A stretch of DNA of 64,000 nucleotides from the NCBI RefSeq assembly GCF_042242105.1, contig NC_092026.1:20122191-20186190 (forward strand). The letters are read 5' to 3'. The position numbers and the translations under genes are program-made. The notes under the pieces are model-generated. The model saw only the letters and a program-made list of their open reading frames with translations, did no database searches and was not told the origin of the DNA. This document shows positions 1,359-55,900 of the stretch, piece by piece (positions within the stretch are counted from its first letter, which is position 1; each line of letters begins with the position of its first letter). This stretch comes from Pempheris klunzingeri (lineage: Eukaryota; Chordata; Actinopteri; Acropomatiformes; Pempheridae).

Positions 1359-3912
<2,554 letters not shown>

Positions 3913-15200: not shown

Positions 15201-18200
15201 ACTTCCATCCCAGAGCACAGAGAGGACAAGAGGATGAAGTAAACAAGGTACCAGGATCTTACTGAACCAGACCCAGGATATGGAGGTGATGTTTCTTTAA
15301 CTAAAACATCACCAAGTCCTTCAGAATTATGAAAGAGGACTGTGCAGCCAAATGTCACCTGTGATATTTTTGCATAAACATATTTGTGTTTTGTTGCACT
15401 CTGTCACTAACTGGTTTAACACGATCGTGAATCACACCCCAATCATGACAGTAAACACTCTGGTCCCCGGTGAGTCTCTCCACTGGTGTTCGGATTATTA
15501 ACACGGGAGGCGTAACAGGTAGTTAGCATTAGCAGAAATAGCCATTGTGGATTAACACACAAAGGAAAAAGGGCACCACCTGTAGAAACTCAAACTTTAT
15601 AAACAGAAACTTCAAAAGAAACACGACATCACAGTACCACCCACACTGTTTGGGACTATTTTCCCTGACATCACCTGTCAGTCAAATGAAGGAGCAATTT
15701 TACCTTTTAATAAGAGATGAGAGGGAGCCATGGCCAGATAAAAACACACAGATGCATAAAAGCCTCATAGAAACTAATGAACTGACCAAAAATAGGAGAG
15801 CACCTTCTTCGGGTATTGGAAGGATCACACAGGATCTTTTTTTGGTTCCACTCATACTTAAGGATTCCCATGTATGCAAGTTCAGCATTTTAAGGATGAA
15901 TGTTTACAGTTTAAAGAGTCGAGGAGGCTGTCAGTTACTTGAGTGTGTACTTCTGTTGGTGTGTCTGATCTGTGGCGTGTTAGGACAAGCGTAACGGCTG
16001 CTGTCACTGCTGATGTCTGTTAGCAAAATGATTTAGAACAGATAGCATCACTGCAGCTTTTACTTTGAGCCACAGTGTAATCCTCTCAGTATGTGATGAA
16101 GGGGGAGATCCAAAATATTAAAAATACTACAAAATTGCAGTTGTTTGCAGTGAAAACTTATTATTTTGAGACTTTGAACGTGATGTGAATTTCTTTTTCT
16201 TGATAATAGTAGTTTAGTAATTCAGCTCATTTATTTCAAGAAACTAGGGGAAACTGGGCTTCTTCTGTTTCAAGAAAGTTTCAGGTCTTACTGCTCCCTT
16301 GGTGTCTTGTCGGACCCATATTTTCCGTGTACATTCCCACTTTATTTACTTAATATTGTCAGTCTGTTTCTCCACATTGTTATTTTACGGTTATTATTTC
16401 TACTTTGTATATTGCAGTCCTCCTCTGTTGGGCTTTCTGAGGTTTTTTTCATTTTATTTTCTAAGGAGTCTAAGGATAGAAAATCTAAAGCCTTTTGAAG
16501 CAAATTTGTGATTTTGGGGCTACCAGTTTACGTATAAAGTTTACTTGACTTTGAAACTTATCACTAACTGAATCAAACCCTGTGGTTCGATCCTGGTTAA
16601 AACACTCCCTGCATTTTGTCTGGGCACAAAATCAGCCTGCCAGTGTTTTGACAGCAGAGCCACTATCTCACTTCTGTTCCGCCAACATTCCTTCTGCACC
16701 ACAGAAAATCTGCTTTTTTTTTTTTTTTTTGGTACAAGCTGATTTTGGGTATAGTTTTGCTTTTTGGTTCCATTTTAATCTTGAACGTTTTGTATTTTCT
16801 TTCTATTGAACTGTTACAAAAAATAAACTGTTATATATTCCCTCGTATATTTATACCCACTGAAACTTTGGATATGCTGTCAGTGTTTCTGGCCACGTTG
16901 GCAAACCTGCTGAGTTTCCTCTGGTTGGCATGAAGATAATGACGGATTAAACATCATTACAGCAGCTCTGTTAGGATTAGGAAGGTGTGGGAGAGAAGAA
17001 AGAAAAAGAGAGGGGAAGAGACTCTTACTCCAGACGGTGAGAGTGATGCGCCTCTCAAAGTTTCCGCTGGGGAAGGTGGAGATGTGGCAGGTGTAGCTGC
17101 CCTCGTCCGACTCCTCCGTGCTGAGGATGAGCAGAGTCGAGTCCTCTGTGGGGCGCCCGCTCTCGAACCTCACCCGGCCAGAGTAACGCCCGAACTCTGA
17201 TAAACAAAAGCAAGACTTCAGCTCAGGCCAGATGATATGACCGTCATCCTTTAAAAAGGTCAAATAGACTTTTAAACAGTGGATTCACCTTGGACTTAAT
17301 TTACCTACAGATAAACAAATCGATCAAACTATGACTGAAACAATCTGTGGTTGATCTATGTGACAAACGTCCATGTTGCATCTTTAATTACCACAGTGCG
17401 AACAACTTTTACAAGGACATGAACAACATTTCAGCACAGCAGCGCTGAATGTCACAAAAAAAATCTGAATTAGAGCTGCAATGATTGATCAATTAACCAT
17501 TTAGTTAGTCAACTATCAAATCAATCAATTATTTTCATAATCGCTAACACATTTGAGTCATTAAATATCCAAATTCTGATGAAGACAAATTCTGCAAGAG
17601 CAGCTGCAAACCAGGCATACATTAGAGGGAGATTTAGTCTCCCGGTATCTTTCATTTCTAAGATCATGAACACCTTTGTGAGAAGAATGTCTCTAAAACA
17701 GTCTGGGAGTATCTCCCAACCACTCGCCACAGCCTACCCGTGTGGCCGTCCGTGAAGTGGGCAGTGACGATCTGGTCCTTGCCGCCGTCCGGGAGCTCCT
17801 TGTACCAGGTGACCTGCACCACCTTCTCCCCCTCCTGCACCCGGAAGCGACAGGGCAGCCTGGTCTGACTCTCTGCCAGGGAGCGCAGGGACGTGATGGG
17901 CTGAGGAGGCTCCACGAAGTCACCCTGCACACACACGGCTGAGGACGGACAGTCTCATCAATCTCAAGTGTGTGGAGAGTGCTGTGAGGTGCTTAAACAA
18001 TCAGTATTTGAGAGGCCTGTTATCCGAATATAACATTGCATTACCCCCTTTATTAAAAAAAAAAAAATCTTTAGTAATCGCATTTATTTTTACCATTTTA
18101 TCCTGTATAGACCTGTTATTATTAGCAAAAAATGCTGAGGCTGATGGGAAATAGTCACTAGTTTTGCAGGGATTCTAGTTATAAATAAGGTGCTATAGGA

Positions 18201-30493: not shown

Positions 30494-33400
30494 TCACACC
30501 GAGGTCTCCGACTGCAGCCTCATGACGAACTTGTGGCTCTTTGGGTCGATGAACTCCTCCCCGAGACGCAGGAAGGGGAGCGGCGTCACCGTGACCACCA
30601 GGGAGAAGTCCAGGCGTCGCAGGGAGAAGACCAGGCCCTGACGCAGGGCTGAGGTCACCGGCTCCTCGCTAACTAGAGTCCACTGGCGCCCCCTGCCGTT
30701 CTGCTGCTGGTACTGCATGGTGGGGCCTGGGGAGAGGTATCGCTCCAGGAAAGCCTGGCAGGGAGAATGTGGACGTTAATCATCATGGAAGCACTGGAAA
30801 ATATGTTTAATAGTAAAGTGTTTGTGCTGCTGTGTTTAACTACAACAATATACACAAATACATTCAACAAAAATGTGTCAACAGCTCTGCGCTTTGTTCC
30901 TTGGATTCTTTTTAATGTGTTTTTCTCGTTAAGTTCTAATTTTTGTTGTTTTTATGGTTTTGGACATTTTTGTTTTTACCTGATTGTATTAAAAATGTAA
31001 TTACATGATTATATGACAGCATTTCTGTTTAGTTTTGATTTTGTGACACAGTTTGTGTTTTTTGTCTTGTGTCAGAGCTGTTCTAAAGATTTCCAAACTC
31101 AAATAAAGGAGCCCCAACCCTTTAAGAAACTTGGGCTACTTATTTGAATAAAAGTCGGATGTGAGATCGGGTTTTCTTAATCTTGCACCTTGGGCGTCAT
31201 GTTGTGCGTGATGCAGAACTGCAGGTGTGTGAGGATGCTCTCCATGCTGTGGAAGGCCTGCTGCCGGGTCGTCCTCAGGTATTTCTGCATGGCTCGGGCC
31301 ATCGGGGCGAAGATGGCTTGAGCCGCCTCTCGAGGGTCCATCACCTCCCTCGGGTGTTTGGGCGACGAGGCGACCTCGTCCTCGTGGAGGCGCTTGATGT
31401 GTGTGAAGGCCTCTTCCACCGCTACAACCAACCTAAAGTAAGAGAGGAGGCCTTATTATAGACACTGTTGCTTGTGTGTTTCTCTGCTCAAATACAAATG
31501 TTTTATTGGTTGCTGTGGGATCTGAAAGTCTTGACAGTCAAATGCTTTGTTTAATCATGAATGGGTGAGTTTGGAAGGCCCAGGATAAACAAGAACATGT
31601 GTTGGCTCGGATCTGACGGACATCTAAACATTACAAGAAATGTTTATTCAGTTCTTTTACTCTGACATTGCCAGAATACAACCAAAACAACCTTACTGAC
31701 ATGCATGATATTGATTGTCACCACAACATGAGGGCTCACTACCTGAGCTTTACAGGGTGAAGCCCAGACAGTTAAAAAAAACAAACACATTATAACATAC
31801 AATTTTATTAATGCTATTTTATAACATAAAAACATGTTTAAAAGATCCCTTAAATTAATTGATAGTTGAAAATGAACCTGTCAGCGTTCTCCGGTAACAA
31901 ATTGCATAACAATGACACAAATTACTGCAAATGAAGTTTTGTACCACTTGTACTATTTTGCTACTTATCAGCCAACACCAGTATATATGTGCTAAGCTAA
32001 TATTGGCCAACAAAATCAGTATCAGTCGGCTGCTATATGAGTTTAATCTGCGGGTGTGACCTTTCTCCCTTGCCTACTCTCTTTCTCTCTCATTTGCTGC
32101 CAATTCCTTGTTTACACTGGGAACCAAAGGGACAAAAGCTTAATTTATGTATAAGGCCAGGGCGAGTGAAAGATTTAAACAAAACTTACATAATTTTTTC
32201 ATGTACTGGCAAATCGGGCTGCATCTAATGATTGTTTTTGTTGCTGATTATTTTCTGTGATTAACCAATCAGAGACAGATCCTGTCTAAACCTGACCGAC
32301 CAGCAGCAGGTGCTTGCAGAATGAACTTCACTTCTGGCTCCAAAAAAAAAAAACAAGATGGCAACAACCAAAATGCCAAACTTGGAGCTTAAAAATAGCA
32401 GCATGCAAACCACCGTAGCCACGCCCACTTCTTAGATGCAGTCTATTGTTCAGAGAAAACCTCTTCTAGCGAGCGTTCAGCCTAAAATTACCATTTTTGT
32501 CCCACGTTTTCATCTCTCCAGGCGACATGTTGTCTCAGAGTGTCATTTTTATTGTGTATAATGCTCCACTAAAAACACCTCACAATAAATCCCTATGGGT
32601 CAGATCGTATCAGGTGTTTGTACATAAGGAACATGTGTCTGACCTGGCCTTGCGTTTGCGGATCCTGCGCTCCATCTCGGCCTCCTCGTAGTAGAACTCG
32701 TTGTGGGAGTTGTCTCTCCTGCGGGCTGCGGCTGCTATCATGGCCCGGGACTGGCCTGTGGAGTTATTTGTGGGGTTTTCTACAAGACAACACATGCAGA
32801 GGGAGGAATTATCAGATTGCATTTCAGGTATTTAGTCGATCATCATCTTCAAGTGAGAGCAAGAGTGAAATCTCACAGTAAGGTAGACTTGTTTGAGGGG
32901 TGTAAAATTACTCTCATGTGGATCTGAGTTAAGAAAATAGCTGCGAATGATCTTTAGGTTTAACCTCAGTTTACATTACTGAATTGTTCTGATGTACAGC
33001 AACAAATGACAATGACAGCTGGAAAAAAATGAGACGGGTTGTGGATTAGAAAACAGGCATCAGAGCCTGGATGAGGCAGAACTTACCGTCCAGGGAGTAA
33101 ACCTTGAAGCCGGTCATCTTCTTGGACAGGATGGACTTGGGCAAGTTGAGCAGGGCAGGGTTGTAGACGGAGAAGTCATTGTAATAACGGTCCAACACCC
33201 AGACAGCTGCCCGCTGGATACTAAAACACAGCGTGTCAATCGTCAATGCCACAGTAAACACACGTCTAACATCAGCTGCTGATGACACAAGAATAGACCC
33301 TGAAGTGTACGCACACATCACATCGTCATGACAGCCAATAAGTAATCAAATAGGTCAATTTAAATGAGGTCATCTTCTGTCCAGTTGTTGTACCCGCCAG

Positions 33401-36400
33401 TAAAAAGAAGTCAAAACAAACAAACAAACCCCAAAACACATCTGGATCTATAATATTACACCTCAAACTATTATTTACTGTATTAAGGCTTCTGCTCCAG
33501 GCACCCAAAGCTACTGATTTTTCCTACTTTAATCTTAGACGTATTTGGGAATATGCACTTCTGAGGCAAATAATCAATTGATGGAATAAGAGCCTTAAAG
33601 CGAGGGAGGCCCTGACTCTAGGGTGCTAACACTCAAGTTCTCTTTACTTATATTTTGCATATTTTTATATTTTTGTGTTGACAGCAAAACTGGGGCCAAG
33701 TGCTATGCCAGCATTGAAAAACTATACGCATCGCACTGAGAACAGGAGGAGCAGAGAGTTGATGTGGGCCCCAGCAGCTAATCGAAGCTAAATGAACTGA
33801 GGAAGACCATGAGTTTAGTTAAAAGTTCAGAGAAGCTTGCAAATGGACTTTGGAGCATTGAAAACTTTGTTACACAGGATTGTAGCCTGTTGGTTCAGAC
33901 CAGAACGTAAGCCATCTTAGCTGTAAACAATACTATGACCCAGCTTTGATGTCAAAGTTTACTTTTAAAGGGTGTAGCCCGACCTTATTCAGTCCAAAAA
34001 GGATATTTCACAGTTTTTAATTAACTCCACTTTTGTTCAGTGCCAAAAGTATCACGACTTCTGTAGCAAACATCTTCCACAGCCGGTCTCACTAACCTGA
34101 GGTGGCCCACGTTGTAGAACTTGCTGGCTCCGTCCGTGCTCCGGACCACCTTGAGGCAAAAGGCCGGCTGCAGGTGTCGGACCTCCAGCAGCACCAGAGC
34201 CAGGTACTGTATGAAGAGCAGGGCGTCCACCAGCGAGGCAGCGTACTCCACGATCCCCCTGTAGTCCCTCTCCCTGGGCTCCAGCACCCGCACGCCGTAG
34301 AACAGCCAGTACGACGCCACGAACAGGAACACCAGCACCATCAGCAGGCAGCGGAAGACGAAGAAGCGCGGGAGTGTGGCGCGAGGAGGCCGGAGGAAGA
34401 GCGCCCAGGAAGAGATGAGCAAGACAAGGAGCTTGAAGGCAAGAGAGACGTAGAGGCCTTCGCAGGGCGTCCCGCAGGGCTCGAGGGCGTCACGCCACAG
34501 CACCTGCGGGAGGATGAGGAAGGCTAAAGGCGTGACCAGGGCGAAGAAGCTCAGGCAGCCTCCCAGAGCCGGGCCAATGAAGCGCTTGCACTCCAGCGGG
34601 GTTGATTCCTCCAATTCTTTGGTGACGCGGGTCAGGTCCTCGTTGGAGATGCTGTGTTCTGACGTGCCGGTGACGACGGTGGTGGTTTCGCCCCAGTTAT
34701 CATCCTGTCAGAAAAAGAGAAAGATGTGATCCATAAATCTCTGCACGGGCCTCCTCTGTGTCAGCGGATAGATTTTAAAATCCTATTACTCGTTTATAAG
34801 CCACTAAATGGTCTGGGGCCAGAGGCAGCTCTACTCCAGGGATCAAAACCAAGAAAGGAGAAGCGGTTTTTAGTGTCTATGTGAAGTTTCCTGAAGACCT
34901 GAGGAGTGAGCTCATTTAAATCAGGGCTAAAGCGTTACTGTTTACTGTTAGATATACAACTTCCTTCTAAACTGTAACTATTTATTTGATTGTTTTCGCC
35001 TTTTCATCGTCTTTTACGTGCAAATTTAATGTTCATCTGTGGTTTTCTTTTTTAATGTATTTTTATGTTCCTGTAAAGCACATTGAGGTGCTTTGCACCT
35101 GAATGCTGCCAATAAATAAATGTGCCTTGACTGATTATTCACGTATGTTTAGGGTGAATCTCCAGTCTAGAAAACCTTAAAATGGAGCGAAATGTTGAAT
35201 TTGAGGACTCAATAGCTTTAATTTAAAATGTATGAAATGACAATGTAGAAATACAAGCTAATCTTATCTACCGAGATATATTTTTTAATAGATAATTGAA
35301 TAAAATTAGTAACCAGATGTTATTCCCTCTTTTGTAGCAAACAGCTAATGAGAATCTATTCTGTATGAAGGCAGAAACCCAAGATGGTCACATGAAAGGT
35401 GTGTTTAGGAGGAAAATACAGACTCATCATTTCTGACATTCTAATCTTTTCTTTCTGAAAGGAAATTCAGGCTCTAAACGCTGTCATAATGCAAGAAAAG
35501 TTCAAATGTTGTATGACGTTATGGAAGGACTCAACCTCTTTGTGTCCTTCAGCTTAAATACAAACTATTCAAAAGACGTGTCTTCACTTCATCCAGGAAC
35601 AAACATCCTCAGTCTAGATTCAAGATTCAAGCGTTTATTGTCATGTGTACAGTGCAGAAACGGGTTTCCCTGTACAATGAAAATCTTACTTTGCCATCCA
35701 CACTGAATGCCAAAGAGTAAAAAAAAGAAGAGTATAGAATAAAATATAAAAACATATAAATATAAACTACTATTGCTAAATAAACTGCTATTGCCTATAT
35801 ATATATATATATTGTCTATATAATGAACTCATGAATTAAACGTCACGTAAAATGTCTTTAAGGTTGTAAGATTTCTCCAACTGACTGAAAAGACAGCTCC
35901 TTGAAAACACACCTGAGACTTCATAGGAATGTAATTTTAATAAGAACAGAAATGGCAGTAAGGTCACAGTCCCAGTCTGAGACCTGAGAAAGCTGGAAAA
36001 ACAGAGACCAGGCTGCTATTTACAGGCCGACTCCTATTTCAGGTGACCAAGCTGTGTGTTTAACCTTGGTTAAACATTCATCAGTGCTATAAAAGGAACG
36101 TGACTGAAAGCTGTAACCCTGGTAAAGACAGTTCCTGCGTGGCAGCAAAACATCACAAACAATATTTCTGATAGGACCAAAGGACCTGTAAATTATAGTT
36201 TCTAGTTGGTACCAAAATTATTTATAAAGAAATGAGCGCTTTTGGGGCAACGGTCACCAAAGGCCTCAAGTGAAGGTCATTAGTGAGTGGTAGATTAATC
36301 TGTGTTTAGAAAGCAGTGTGACTGACCCTGTCATCTCCACGGGTCGACTCTGCATCCAGCAGTGGCTCACCGGGAGTCTGGATGGTGACCGATTTGTCTC

Positions 36401-36904
36401 CGCGACTGCTGCTGTCTCGACTCTTAGAACGGTGACGATCCCTCCGGTCCCTGGAAGACACACGCAAAGCAAAACCCTTTTACGTATGAAACGTACGCTG
36501 ATGTAGCATGTTCAAGGTGTGCTATAGTTCATATAAACCAGCTTTAGTATATTTCCTCTTCGTCCACATTGACGTGAACAAACAGTTACAGCCCAAACTC
36601 TGTTGCTGTCCTGTGAACGCCACACATCTCCAAAATCTACAGGAAGTAGGATAATTGTCTTAAGCCATTAAAGGATAATTCTGTTTTTTGTTTTTTGTTT
36701 TAAACCCGAGCAGCATTTTTACATATTTTGAATTCGAAATGTCTGGTAGGTACACAAAGTAATGGAATGGAATAAATTAAGTGTTTAAAAGAGGGATGGT
36801 GTTAAACATATGTCATCTGTGGGTTATACATACCTGTGCTTGCGGGAGCTTCGGGAGTGGGAGGACTTGTAAGAGTAGCCCGAGTACTGCGACTCGTTGT
36901 CCAT
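30494..36904 (-). CDS. vangl2: Vang-like protein 2, planar cell polarity core protein
   Basis: Seven coding exons join in frame to 525 aa: 36904-36834, 36450-36327, 34704-34097, 33220-33087, 32779-32644, 31432-31189 and 30754-30494. The protein starts [20 protein letters not shown], a serine-rich cluster that is phosphorylated in Vangl proteins. It has four transmembrane segments in the 608-nt exon (for example [16 protein letters not shown]) and a large cytoplasmic C-terminal domain. It ends in ETSV, the PDZ ligand. Choices such as [36 protein letters not shown] and HIKRL match VANGL2 rather than VANGL1 as I recall them. Human VANGL2 is 521 aa. It acts at the plasma membrane with Prickle, Frizzled, Dishevelled and Celsr to orient cells. 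A 3-kb region upstream of the stop shows no other gene. The reading frame also extends 5' of this ATG (see separate entry). Confidence 0.93.
34745..35125 (+). mobile_element. LINE 3' fragment
   Basis: On the + strand the fragment begins with [18 protein letters not shown], then ends with GTAAAGCACATTGAGGTGC and AATAAATAAATGTGCCTTGA. These are typical of an L2-like fish LINE 3' end. It is 5'-truncated and lies antisense in a vangl2 intron. Confidence 0.7.
35610..35705. repeat. interspersed repeat tail (GATTCAAGCGTTTATTGTCA type)
   Basis: AAGATTCAAGCGTTTATTGT followed by TTTCCCTGTACAATGAAAAT resembles a widely dispersed fish non-LTR tail. An AT-rich stretch with TATATATA follows up to about 35820. 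Confidence 0.5.
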
Positions 36905-37072
36905 GTCTCGGGTCGGCGGTGAGCGGGCTTTACGAGCCCCGCCTCCTCCTCCTCCCCCCGTGCCGCGCTGCTCGCCGACTCCTCCCAGCTGGCTCTTGCG
37001 CTCTGAGATGGACTTGGTGGAGAGGGCCAGGGGCAGCTTGAGCAGGTCAACCTTACTCCTGAGGGAATCTAT
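36905..37072 (-). CDS. vangl2: in-frame N-terminal extension of Vangl2 from an ATA start
   Basis: Directly upstream of the vangl2 ATG the same frame is open from 37126 to 36905; the first in-frame stop is TAG at 37129-37127. An ATA codon at 37072-37070 has A at -3 and G at +4 (AAGATAG), a strong Kozak context. Translation from it would add 56 residues. They start with (M)DSLRSKVDLLKLPL and end with a glycine run and RKARSPPTRD before MDNES. The leucine-rich and Ser/Lys-rich text is protein-like rather than random UTR. I recall a described vertebrate isoform, Vangl2-Long, made from a near-cognate AUA start about 50 residues upstream; this exon fits it. Protein-level use is not shown by the sequence. 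The isoform would be 581 aa. Confidence 0.7.
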
Positions 37073-37206
37073 CTTGGAGGCCGATGAGGAGGAAGTGGGA
37101 GAAGGGATTTGGGAGAGCGGGGGAGGCTACGGAGAGGAGGAAGAGGGGTGGGAGAGAGGAAGGTGGGTAGGAGAGTCGCAGCAGGGGACAGCTGAGGTGG
37201 CTGTGA

Positions 37207-37217
37207 TCTGAAAGAGA

Positions 37218-42180: not shown

Positions 42181-44127
42181 CTTAATAGCTACTTCCAATG
42201 TGGATATATTTAGATCTGTGAGAGCGTCTGAATTCCAGTAACTCAGTGCATTTGGTTAATGTATCAAGCCCTGCTGTAATTATACATGATAACACACAGC
42301 CGCTGAATGCCTTTACCCTGTGCACCGGGGTACCTTGTGTTTCTTTTCTCCAGCGGGATCCCTCGCCCTGATCCCTGAGCAGCACTGGGTCAAACACGGT
42401 TGGCGAGAATATGACACAACACTTGATCTACAGAGGTGTGGTCCACTGTCGAGGTGGATAAGGTTTCCTATTCATCCCAGTGTCCTCTGGCCTACTTAAT
42501 GAACTTCACGGGACTCTTCTCAGCGCCTCCAGTCAGCAGCTTTTAAGTTAAAGACTGAGAGCAACAGCCTGTTCTCTAAAAACATAACCTGCTGTTGTTT
42601 ATGGCTTCTGATTCTTCCATGAACACACAGGCTCCTTTCTCTGTTTCTGGACAGTCATTGTTAACCAAACACTGGTGGGATTTTCTTTTTCTACATAAAG
42701 ATTTCTCACAACCTCAAAGCTTCAGAAAAAAAAAAGAAAAAAGAAAAGAAAATGACCCTTGTTCACTCCACTCTTGGCTGAATTTAAAAGCCAGCAACAG
42801 GCCGGTTCAGTAATCTGTGATTTGAGATTAAACAGTTATGATGTCGGGCCAAAGGGAGCGTAAAGCCATTTAATATGTATCATTAACTGATAGCAAAGAT
42901 AACCGTTTTCTGTACAAACTAAGCTGCATGCTCACTCATTATAGGCACAAAAGAAACTTTAGACTAGGCACCAACCAACAAAACTAAGAAAAATAACTAA
43001 AATAAATCAATATAACATCTAATTATCTTTTCAAATATATGTTCTTTATCTCTGCATACATTATGGTCTGTACCAGGTAAGTGGTCCTTTTGGTTTATAA
43101 ATTTATTTATGTTTTTATCTAAAAACACTGAAATTTACTCTACAGAACAGAATCAGCTTAAAACAATCAACATGTGTAAAGTATGTGTTTCATTTTAGAA
43201 CGTAAACTTCTCATGTCCTCGTCAAATTTTATTACAGAGGACATGACCTTGGTGCTCTTAATAGTGGCTAAAAGCCATGCCAAAGACACCTCACTTTAAA
43301 TAAGACATTATAGCCAAGATTACACCTATTCGCCTGTATAATAATAATAAATTATTATTAAGGTGGGTATGAAATTTAAAAACTGACATCGGATGCCTGA
43401 TCAGATTCTTACATTTGTTTACTGAGTGATCAGACATCTCCTAAATTAAATTAGTGAAGTTCTTTCTTGGCTTTTAGTCCAGACAAAATCAAACATTGGT
43501 GTATTTTACAGGAAAGTAGCTTGTTGTTTAAATAAAAAAGGCACTTTCAAGAAAAAAAAGCAAGCAATTATCCACCTCTATCCTCCATGGACGTCTTTTT
43601 TCCCTTTTAAAAAAGTATTTCTATCCCTTTATTTTGGCGTTTTCATGTCTCTCTCTCTAATCTAATGTCTCCTTTGCATTATGTAATTAACTGTGCCATA
43701 TAAATAAATATAAAACTCAACTCATCTTTAAAAAAAAGAAGTCTACATGTTGATGTCAAATCCAAAAAGTTCAGCAAAGTAATGCTGCTCAATAAATTGT
43801 TCAAACCATCAATTATGATAAAAGCAACCATTAATCAGGAATGCTGCTGTAAACATGCAGCTCGAGTCGCATTACGTTTAAAACAAGCAGATGTAGGTTT
43901 TACAGCCTCCATGTTCCCAAAGGCAAAAAAGAAATCAAGCTGTCATCAAACATTTGAAGCTGCTGGCGCTGAGACAGCAGCTGTCAGGGTGGAAAAGCAA
44001 TCTGGGCCATCTCCGAAATGACCAGCTCCATTCAAACAGCCATTTGAGGCCTGATATACCAACTGTGAAAATAAGTGTGCACACAGCCAGGGTCCGGCAG
44101 GGGAAGAGGCTCATCACTGTACCAGGG

Positions 44128-44327
<200 letters not shown>

Positions 44328-44435
44328 GGCTGACCACCACCCACTGCTGCCTGCAACGACATCAGTAAAACCAACGAAAGACAAGACAACTGCTACTGTC
44401 AGCCTGCGTGCACACATGGCCAGCAAACCAGAGCA

Positions 44436-44480
44436 GGTGTGTGTGTGTGAGTGTGTGAGGGTGTGTGTGTGTGTGTGTGT
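44436..44480. repeat. interrupted (GT)n tract
   Basis: GTGTGTGTGT runs with GAGTGTGTGAGG interruptions. They lie 111 nt after the (CA)98 tract and are inverted relative to it. Confidence 0.85.
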
Positions 44481-45379
44481 ACAAATCTAACAGGATATGG
44501 TTGAATCAACAGGCCTGTCCTCTGCTCAGCGCTGTGATTCAAAGAGACCCCTGCACACAATCTGTCTTCATATCCAAACAAAGTATTGAGGAGACAGGAA
44601 GTGGCTCAGCGAGCTGAGCTGAGCTGAGATAGATGTGGTTCACATACAGGACTCTGATCCATTAGGCAGCCTGAGGTTTATGCATTTTCTTTTAAATCCA
44701 GTCAGACAAACATTAAAAGGTCAGTTCAACAACATTTCACAATCTTAACCCTGTCGTGGTGGCTACTCATGCAGACAGTTTCAGTTTTATGCCGAGACTC
44801 TCCGCTCTGGTACCATCATGAGGCTGAGTTTAATCTAATTTACGGCCTTTGGAGCATTTAAAAATGACATTTGAAAAACTCAGCAACAACATGGCTTTCA
44901 AAGAGGAGTGGCTCGGTCAGGCTAGATGATCTACAGATGCAAAAGACAGACAGTCCTCACTGGGAACTATTTTCTAGCCACTGAAAACGGTCCACACACG
45001 ACAGCATTAAGCATTACTGTAGATCTCCTGGAGAGAAAACACATACCGAGTTTAAATTAACGGTCAGTTAATCAGTTAGCTTGTTGGCAGTGGCTACAAT
45101 GCCTTCGATATTCTCTGCTGCCTGAGAAAAACGATAGATTGATCCTTCATTAAATCATTTTACAGTTTTTAGTTCCCATTTTCGACCACTTCTTAAGTCA
45201 GACATTAAAAGCCCATTTTATCTTAACAGTGTTGCTTGTTCAGGACTTTTATTTGTCGATAAAACAAACCAAAGGCACACAGGGGCTAAAAGGTGACTGT
45301 GTTTTCTGTGATTTGGCTGAACTGGCCCTTTAAGCATAAAGACAAACTGACTGGCTGATGACATTAGTAAATTACCAAC

Positions 45380-52900: not shown

Positions 52901-55900
52901 TGGAAATTAATTGTGAATGTTGTTGCAAAAAATAAACTTTTGATATAGAAATCATTTTAAAGCCCCTACAACTTCAGATATAGAATACTTAAACTCAAAG
53001 CCTTGACTTTTGATAACATAACAGATTTTTGGATCTTTTTCAGCCTTGGAAACACTCATGCACAGCTGAGTAGTGCAGAAGACTGAGGGAGAAAGTACAG
53101 AAATAATCTTTGGTGGAGAAAGGCTGTGATGTTTTTCAGATTAGTCAAATGAAAAGGTGGAGTTGGGAAGAGACAGCTAGGGGAACAGTGAACTTTTAGA
53201 TAAGATAGCTGCATAGCTTGAGATGCGTTCTGCTAATTCCCAAAAGAAATCCGGCTGCCTTACTATCTGAGGGTCTGCGTTGATGCTGCTCAGCTGGGTT
53301 CGTGCTCCTCCTGCCTGTACGTACAGAGCTCGAGCCACCATGGTGGCCACCTCGGTCAGAGCCTGAAAGATGCAGAGAGAAACAGAAAATCAAATAATGG
53401 CAGCGTTAAGACAGCTTGAAGTAGCAATCTTGAAAATCTGTTTAGTTCTCTTTGGCGGCATCGGTGGCGATGAGCTTTAGTAGCAGGTTTGTTTTTGGAC
53501 TTCACTCTACACAGAGATCCAAACAGGCTCCTAGCTGACGTTTTTTTAGTGATTTTTCCCAGGAATGTTCACTCGACACAGAGTTTGTAATACTAAAGAA
53601 TATTGCAAAAGCAGTGGCTGCTCATCAGTAGGCTATGGGCTCAATCGGCGACAGATGGTGACATATCAGACATTTATTTAGCTGAACATTTTTGAGAACG
53701 CCACTTGAAATATTCCACATAAAGAACAACTTCTTGTAGCAGATGTTAGAGGTTAGATATGTATTTTTTTACATTTGAGAAAAAGAGTGTACATAATATA
53801 TTACTTATATCCCATACGCTGCGTTTCTAAACTGATTTTATTGAACAGTTTAAGAGAAATGTGATGTTTCCCAAAAAGCTGCAAACTCAGAAGCAGAAGA
53901 AAGAAAATGTACCCCGTCAGTGGTGACATCAATGTAATTGGATAAAGACAAGTTCATGTTGATATCAGAGCAAAGAAGAACACTTTCAATCATCTCTCTA
54001 GTTGAAATCACATCTGTCTGAGCTCCTTGAGAGCAGCAGAAGTTGTGGACTGGCTTTGCAAAGCAAACTCAGGAGCACTTGAATATGGTGAATATTTGGT
54101 ATTAACAGCATTACCATGGCGGTGTCGGTGACGAACTCTAGCTGCTCCTCTGGTGTCAGGTTCGGTGGGTACGATATGTTCAGATATTCTGCATCATCGT
54201 ACATACTCTCATAGAACCTGCACACAGAACAGAAGAATAAATGAACACAACGTGCCAATCCCATACATGAAATGTAACAGTGTGTGATAATAGTGTGTTT
54301 TTAAAGAAACCCTGAACCACCTGTTGGTGAAAGCAGACTGGTGATCCTCAATAACAACACCAGGGATTGGCCGAGCTCGCAGGAAACGCTGGAAGGACGA
54401 GGGCGGGAGCGGCTGGGAGAAGTTGGGCTCGTCCACAGTGATGTTTAAATCTGTGGCAGCCAAGTGCAAGTTTTCAATGAGCTTCCTCACCTGAAACAGA
54501 ATGTTAAAAAGGGAGTGAAAAAAGAGAAATGTGACAATAACACACACATTGTGACTGACAGTTTTTGTTCCTACTCTGCTTTTATTAATTCCTCTTACGC
54601 CTGCCCTTAAATGGTCATCGAATATTTAAATTTGATCGTCAAATCAGAAACCTGTGAATTTAGCCCCTCACAATCTGGCACATTTTCTATTTATAGTATT
54701 TTATATAGCAGTAGTGCTTGAGGATAATTTCCACATCAGTTCCTGTTTTAGTCCTAATATTTTGATTAAAGCTATTTCTACTTTTTAGGACCCTTTTTGA
54801 AATCCAAATTTAATTTTGTATGAATTTATTTCTACTTACATGTGCTTTCATTAGGTTCAACCATACGCTTTTGCAGTTAACATTTCTAGATGGTGAGTAG
54901 AGTGCCTCCAGTTTTATTTTCATGCTTCTTATTTTAGAAAATACATAAATACAACGTATATAGTGCTGTGTTGAAAATCATCTCTCCTCCACCTCTCAAG
55001 GAGTATATTCAAATTCAAGCCTTTTCCAAACCTTGAAAATGATTATGTTAAAATCAAGCATGTTCAAAACGTTCAAGACTAAACCAACTATAAATCATCC
55101 AAAACGTAACCATTACGCCTCTTTAATTAAGGTATATATAGAAACATTATACTATCACCTTTCATTTCCTCCTATAGGGATCACTATGTGCTGTGGTGGT
55201 TGAGCAGTGTTGTATGAGGAGAGAAGAAGCTCTTAAAATGTGCACAGACACAAACCTCATCGTTGACACTGCTGTTCTTCCTCGACACAGGATCAGAGTG
55301 CATCCACAGCCGGGAGTCAGCACGAAGCCCCACCTATGAACAAAAAGAAACACACTGATAAACTGCACACATGTAAACATGACATGCATCTTATTACATT
55401 TAAGAAATAAAAGGTCTTCACAGATTATGTTCACAATAGTAGCACAGGTACAGCTACAATAGCTTTTGGCATCAACTTGTTTACTAATCTGACCGACCAA
55501 CTCTACTTAATTTAAGTTACGTTAGTGTTGTTTACATAGATTCCAATTTAAATAATAATCTTTTAACTTTCCCATTTTAAACTCCCACATTAAACTTTGG
55601 TATCAGTACTGGAGCTCGGGTATATTATAGTGCTATTATAGTGCATTTCCTTAAACTCTGGTGGTCTGTGCAGGTTGATACATACGGTACACACACCATT
55701 ATTGGAAAAGTCTCCAATACGCACCTGTCCTATTTCCAGGACTGAGTGAACATTGTCCAGGTCCAGTGCAAACTGATTGTTCTGCATATCGTACACCATC
55801 CTCGAACTGCCAATGTAGTCAAAGGTTTCCTGGAGTCCAACAGCATAAACTCAAATAAGTAAGTCTGGCAGGACAACATCAAGTTTGGGAAGTACAGCGG

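Follow-up and report, generated by a model that had tools for sequence, protein, structure and literature searches.

The vangl2 gene of the fish Pempheris klunzingeri carries an in-frame 5′ extension that very probably is the fish version of the Vangl2-Long frame, in which translation would start at an AUA codon through leaky scanning and yield a predicted 581-residue form beside the 525-residue form. The gene lies on the minus strand of a 64,000-nucleotide stretch of contig NC_092026.1 (positions 20,122,191 to 20,186,190), which is called the window here and in whose numbering positions are given. Vangl2-Long is already published and the feature is not new; what is added to it is a second vangl2 copy in the same genome and an overlap with a morpholino used in zebrafish. 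This fish keeps, in both of its vangl2 genes, the AUA start together with its context and the first 30 Vangl2-Long codons, which implies that the isoform is not a tetrapod matter. The frame, the context, the conservation in the second vangl2 gene, and the absence before vangl1 start codons were established in this analysis, and the AUA-dependent translation and the need for the long form in work on human cells and Xenopus, respectively.

Vangl2-Long was described in human, mouse, and Xenopus by Walton et al. 2024 (PMC11065751). The human AUA lies 144 bases upstream, and its mutation to GCA abolishes the long form in HEK293T cells. Vangl2 and Vangl2-Long occur at a ratio of 3:1 to 4:1, and junction-spanning peptides were detected in human cells and in Xenopus (PMC11065751). 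Xenopus oligos against the AUA site removed about 70% of the long form and <20% of the short form and caused morphogenesis and polarity defects; in ciliogenesis, the short and the long mRNA could each make up for the other (PMC11065751). Partner searches for the extension failed, and the authors suggest that the isoform is an addition to a limited Vangl2 pool (PMC11065751). The ATA is reported as almost entirely conserved in mammals and tetrapods, with ATT in some birds, and the extension as conserved in fish (PMC11317171). The first-pass annotation of the window rightly named this AUA-started isoform (PMC11065751). Its expectation that annotation would miss such a start no longer holds for human and mouse, where GENCODE has added VANGL2 (AUA) to its re-annotation list (PMC9789052; PMC11317171).

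The gene in the window is intact and encodes 525 residues in seven coding exons. Its protein matches the Pfam Strabismus family (E 1.3e-256) and scores 911 bits against VANGL2 and 768 bits against VANGL1 in a PDB comparison, by which the host gene is classed as Vangl2 and not Vangl1. The canonical ATG (36904-36902, within GAC ATG G) opens the coding part of exon 2 (36834..36904, minus strand). From there, the frame stays open upstream for 74 codons to an in-frame TAG (37127..37129, minus strand), at exactly the coordinates first proposed. The putative start is the near-cognate ATA at 37070..37072 (minus strand), whose context TCC AAG ATA GAT places A at −3 and G at +4, again as first described. 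From the ATA to the codon before the ATG, the extension covers 56 codons (36905..37072, minus strand) and reads IDSLRSKVDLLKLPLALSTKSISERKSQLGGVGEQRGTGGGGGGGARKARSPPTRD. The first-pass count of 56 extra residues holds when the ATA is included, but the peptide quoted with it, DSLRSKVDLLKLPL, starts one residue after the initiating codon. The extension falls into two parts. Codons 1-30 form a conserved core (36983..37072, minus strand; IDSLRSKVDLLKLPLALSTKSISERKSQLG) with a short hydrophobic run, LLKLPLAL, and the remaining 26 codons form a variable Gly-/Arg-rich part that includes a GGA run (36905..36982, minus strand).

The open frame does not by itself argue for the extension. Under a first-order Markov model of the leader, 27% of 5000 draws contained at least 74 open codons (P about 0.27), and 48% contained no ATG. 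ATG is indeed absent in all frames over the 303 bases between the likely splice acceptor and the start codon, which bears out the claim that no ATG lies in the extension, but both the open-frame length and the missing ATG are likely by chance and were rejected as evidence. A chance open frame in a GC- and pyrimidine-rich leader would account for these two properties, and the vangl1 gene on contig C10 likewise has 71 open codons upstream with nothing similar to the extension. Such a frame leaves unexplained why the extension is conserved between the two vangl2 genes and with zebrafish, and the probability of this reading is close to negligible. The frame noted at first sight is thus real, while its openness alone is not evidence; the evidence for the extension is comparative.

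The second vangl2 gene was found by a search of the whole genome (646 Mb) with the extension plus the N terminus as query (E up to 0.001), which returned two matches, the window itself and one place on contig C23. There, the gene reads IDSLRSKVDLLRLPLALSSKSISDRKSQLGVVWEKGGGSGAVGTRKPRPPPASD before the canonical N terminus (extension at L002 1501-1662). The ATA (L002 1501-1503) and its context TCC AAG ATA GAT are identical to those in the window, and the canonical ATG is the sole ATG in L002 1331-1665. The two extensions share 39 of 54 aligned residues, 27/30 in the first part and 12/24 in the rest. They differ in length by two whole codons, and the C23 copy contains neither a frameshift nor a stop, the features that had been named as grounds to refute the extension. 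The rest of the C23 gene was traced by tblastn only, with exons at 81-87% identity and one 48% match that runs through an intron. Its transmembrane exon is only slightly nearer to VANGL2 (306 bits) than to VANGL1 (299 bits); the gene is assigned to vangl2 because this exon is 84% identical to that of the window gene and because of its N terminus. The two vangl2 genes presumably date from the teleost genome duplication.

The pattern of change between the copies is that of a coding sequence. Base changes at codon positions 1, 2, and 3 number 3, 2, and 10 in the first 30 codons (P 0.0085 vs one third) and 12, 8, and 23 over the whole extension (P 0.005), so that the synonymous-biased substitution proposed as a check is present as third-position bias (10/15 and 23/43). 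Of the first 30 codons, 11 have changed, 8 of them synonymously. NG86 estimates of nonsynonymous (dN) and synonymous (dS) divergence are 0.11 and 0.45 for the first 30 codons (dN/dS about 0.25) and 0.23 and 0.68 for the whole extension (dN/dS about 0.34). The similarity also begins close to the putative start codon. In an ungapped comparison that starts at the ATA, 75/90 bases match (shuffles average 23), and the 60 bases 5′ of it include 28 matches (shuffles 21, P 0.019). The latter excess comes from the last 12 bases, of which 10 match, since positions −60 to −13 are at shuffle level (18/48, shuffles 18, P 0.55). Similarity between the copies hence ends about 12 bases 5′ of the ATA.

Codon usage, scored in bits per codon against the rest of vangl2, gives the same boundary from the window alone. 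The first 28 extension codons score 0.54 in frame, a value that none of 5000 base shuffles reached; the other two forward frames score −0.89 and −1.02, and the reverse-strand frames −0.51, 0.19, and −1.29. The stretch from the TAG to the ATA scores −1.07 and the last 28 extension codons −0.73. The coding signal therefore sets in close to the ATA and weakens on the way to the ATG. Another proposal is that the conserved stretch does not encode protein and instead acts in the leader as a control element, at the DNA or RNA level. Such an element would fit the first six codons, in which all 18 bases are identical between the vangl2 copies, together with the 10/12 preceding bases. It fits poorly with change biased to third positions, with a length difference of whole codons, and with the share of synonymous codons given above, and the RNA fold near the AUA shows nothing beyond shuffles (z 0.94). 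No Rfam family matched at gathering score and no tRNA scan gave a match in the window. The control element is accordingly judged very improbable.

A further alternative accepts the extension as coding but places its start at an AUG in exon 1. The acceptor-like tract that ends at the TAG (37129-37127) would then be used, the TAG would be spliced out, and the ATA would be read as an internal isoleucine codon. Of the 18 bases before 37127, 94% are pyrimidines, and the tract is the second acceptor-like one of the region. The C23 copy has a CCCAG that ends 9 bases 5′ of its ATA, and the genomic frame upstream stays open over 146 codons, so that it would fall to exon 1 to close the frame or keep it open. 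Against this, similarity between the copies ends about 12 bases 5′ of the ATA, and the ATA itself is kept with its context, which an internal codon would not need. ATA is a rare isoleucine codon. In addition, the acceptor TTTCAG at 37213-37208 appears good by eye, with a TC repeat, an all-pyrimidine tract, and CAG, for which reason exon 2 probably starts at 37207 (36834..37207, minus strand, with the donor GT from 36833, as read from the sequence). The human AUA mutation, which abolishes the long form, also speaks against a start in exon 1 (PMC11065751). This alternative is very improbable too, if a shade less so than the control element, and initiation at the AUA is retained as the favored explanation.

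The extension is confined to the vangl2 genes. The genome holds at least two further Vangl genes, on contigs C24 and C10, which are nearer to VANGL1 than to VANGL2 (240 vs 220 bits and 180 vs 167 bits, respectively) and whose ATGs were located in L025 and L012. The genomic frames upstream of the two ATGs are open for 34 and, on C10, 71 codons. Nothing similar to the extension precedes the ATG in either of the two vangl1 genes found, in agreement with the absence from Vangl1 stated in the first-pass annotation. A tblastn search with the 30-residue core over about 40 kb at each vangl1 gene gave nothing better than E 0.38. With the whole extension, one of the matches listed in these regions reached E 0.003, a poly-Gly run in L011 that does not lie before a vangl1 ATG. 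Some kb from the C10 gene, the peptide DKKLSKIEILRLAICYIS was noted at L014 4391-4444, presumably an NHLH-type helix-loop-helix signature.

The comparison with other species rests on morpholino oligos printed in papers. The window matches the target of zebrafish MO4-vangl2, whose sequence is printed in PMC7250581 and PMC10659374, at 22/25 bases in extension codons 2-10 (37044..37068, minus strand), as does the C23 copy (22/25). All three differences from the window are at third codon positions, and SLRSKVE is read against SLRSKVD. The zebrafish ATG oligo matches at 23/24 bases, and the window is thus near to the zebrafish sequence and not identical to it. In Xenopus, the target common to both long-form oligos (12 bases from the ATA) shows three differences, all at third positions (IESL against IDSL), and the MO2 target reads AAA ATA G. 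With three more MO1 bases included, 3/4 Xenopus differences are at third positions. Pooled with zebrafish, 6/7 differences are third-position (P 0.007), or 5/6 when each site is counted once (P 0.018); without the MO1 bases, the pooled count is 6/6 (P 0.0014). Together with the second copy, the 25-base zebrafish target and the 12-base Xenopus target indicate that an extension of about 50 residues is conserved among vertebrate Vangl2 genes, as judged from these sequences.

By homology, MO4-vangl2 covers +5 to +29 from the AUA, and Xenopus MO1 +1 to +23. MO4-vangl2 is described as translation-blocking with a site in the 5′ untranslated region (PMC10659374), is said to phenocopy trilobite mutants (PMC7250581), and was also used in PMC13199485. 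Literature searches for the oligo and its name found no link to Vangl2-Long in the text available to them. As the oligo by homology sits within the Vangl2-Long coding region just 3′ of the AUA, which both fish copies kept, it might preferentially deplete the long form, a suggestion that is offered tentatively and is rather unlikely. If true, morphant phenotypes credited to total Vangl2 loss would partly be Vangl2-Long phenotypes that extra short form rescues. Existing zebrafish morpholino data could then be re-read, with a general-knockdown reagent that sits where the Xenopus oligos removed mostly the long form. An sfGFP tag targeted at the zebrafish start codon gave viable, mildly hypomorphic fish (PMC9508082).

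In the proposed mechanism, ribosomes that scan exon 2 would reach the AUA at 37072 without having passed an AUG. The strong context of the AUA would let a minority initiate there and make the 581-residue protein, and the remaining ribosomes would continue to the AUG and produce the 525-residue form. We infer leaky scanning past a near-cognate start in good context as the simplest route. Both forms would act as polarity proteins in the same membrane complexes, to which the long form would add the conserved 30-residue cytoplasmic segment and a variable linker. Its main role would be dosage in Vangl complexes, with membrane or partner contact by the conserved part; a contact role beyond dosage is suggested because dosage alone would not need purifying selection on amino acids.

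Several points weigh against this explanation. Expression in this fish is predicted from its DNA, and the junction peptides reported elsewhere do not by themselves fix the start codon. One reverse-strand frame also scores above zero over the first 28 codons (0.19 vs 0.54), the last 28 codons are not coding-like in their codon usage, and in the second part of the extension half of the aligned residues are conserved between the copies. The printed Xenopus MO1 gives IESLKES and exits the fish frame after codon 5 (12/23 matches ungapped); a base may be missing in print (PMC11065751), or the sequences differ. By eye, the printed human residues 30-47 (PKRPQPAALERYKARRSD) have little in common with the second half in the fish apart from KAR. 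In zebrafish, vangl2 mRNA that does not carry the oligo site largely rescues MO4 morphants (PMC10659374), a result compatible both with a general block and with a loss of the long form that is replaced by the short form. In zebrafish mutants, human VANGL2 coding mRNA fully rescues heart traits and partly rescues axis length and neuron migration; according to the headings of the paper, neuromast polarity and spaw asymmetry are not rescued (PMC10772043). If the rescue mRNAs are without the extension, the rescued traits do not strictly depend on it.

Within the second part of the extension, a G-rich run with GGA units (36937-36964) encodes poly-Gly and matches a simple quadruplex pattern. At this position, the sequence of the C23 copy is different, and the run is not among the entries of the tandem-repeat scan. 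An in-frame ACG (36959-36961) with G at −3 and +4 lies 19 codons 5′ of the ATG and is a candidate third start, which can be compared with an unexplained middle band in Xenopus (PMC11065751). No test supports the G-rich run as a modifier or the ACG as a third start. A literature search for letter strings of the extension gave no match. In a PDB search with the extension plus the N terminus, the best match, VANGL2, spans only query residues 52-80, the shared N terminus, and the other five of the six matches listed (E 0.02 to 0.31) are VANGL1 N termini or low-complexity matches. Neither the first 267 canonical residues nor the extension plus the N terminus found a relative in prokaryote and viral collections.

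The remaining vangl2 coding exons, all on the minus strand, are exon 3 (36327..36450), exon 4 with the transmembrane part (34097..34704), exon 5 (33087..33220), exon 6 (32644..32779), exon 7 (31189..31432), and the last coding exon with the stop (30494..30754). About 17 kb from vangl2, a nicastrin exon lies at 54212-54625 on the minus strand (Pfam E 2e-08); NCSTN is, we assume, a neighbor of VANGL2 in human. The window also contains an immunoglobulin V-set exon (16883-17284, minus strand, Pfam E 2.4e-07), a C2H2 zinc-finger reading frame (2980-3909, plus strand, Pfam E 2.4e-14), and a long CA/GT dinucleotide repeat (43897-44490) with frames open on both strands.

Two known systems can be compared with the fish extension. 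Among the GENCODE non-AUG N-terminal extensions (PMC9789052), VANGL2 (AUA) is one of the re-annotated genes; it is not among the eight genes named, in the available text, as common to the ribosome-profiling and PhyloCSF sets, and the selection analysis there is mammalian, whereas it concerns fish here. The published Vangl2-Long (PMC11065751), whose alignment includes zebrafish according to the figure legend, differs from the fish extension in that the second half of the latter is Gly-rich. The extension is also found in two vangl2 genes here, while zebrafish is said to have one (PMC10772043). Both share the same gene, a strong-context AUA, an in-frame extension to the canonical AUG, and absence from Vangl1 (PMC11065751).
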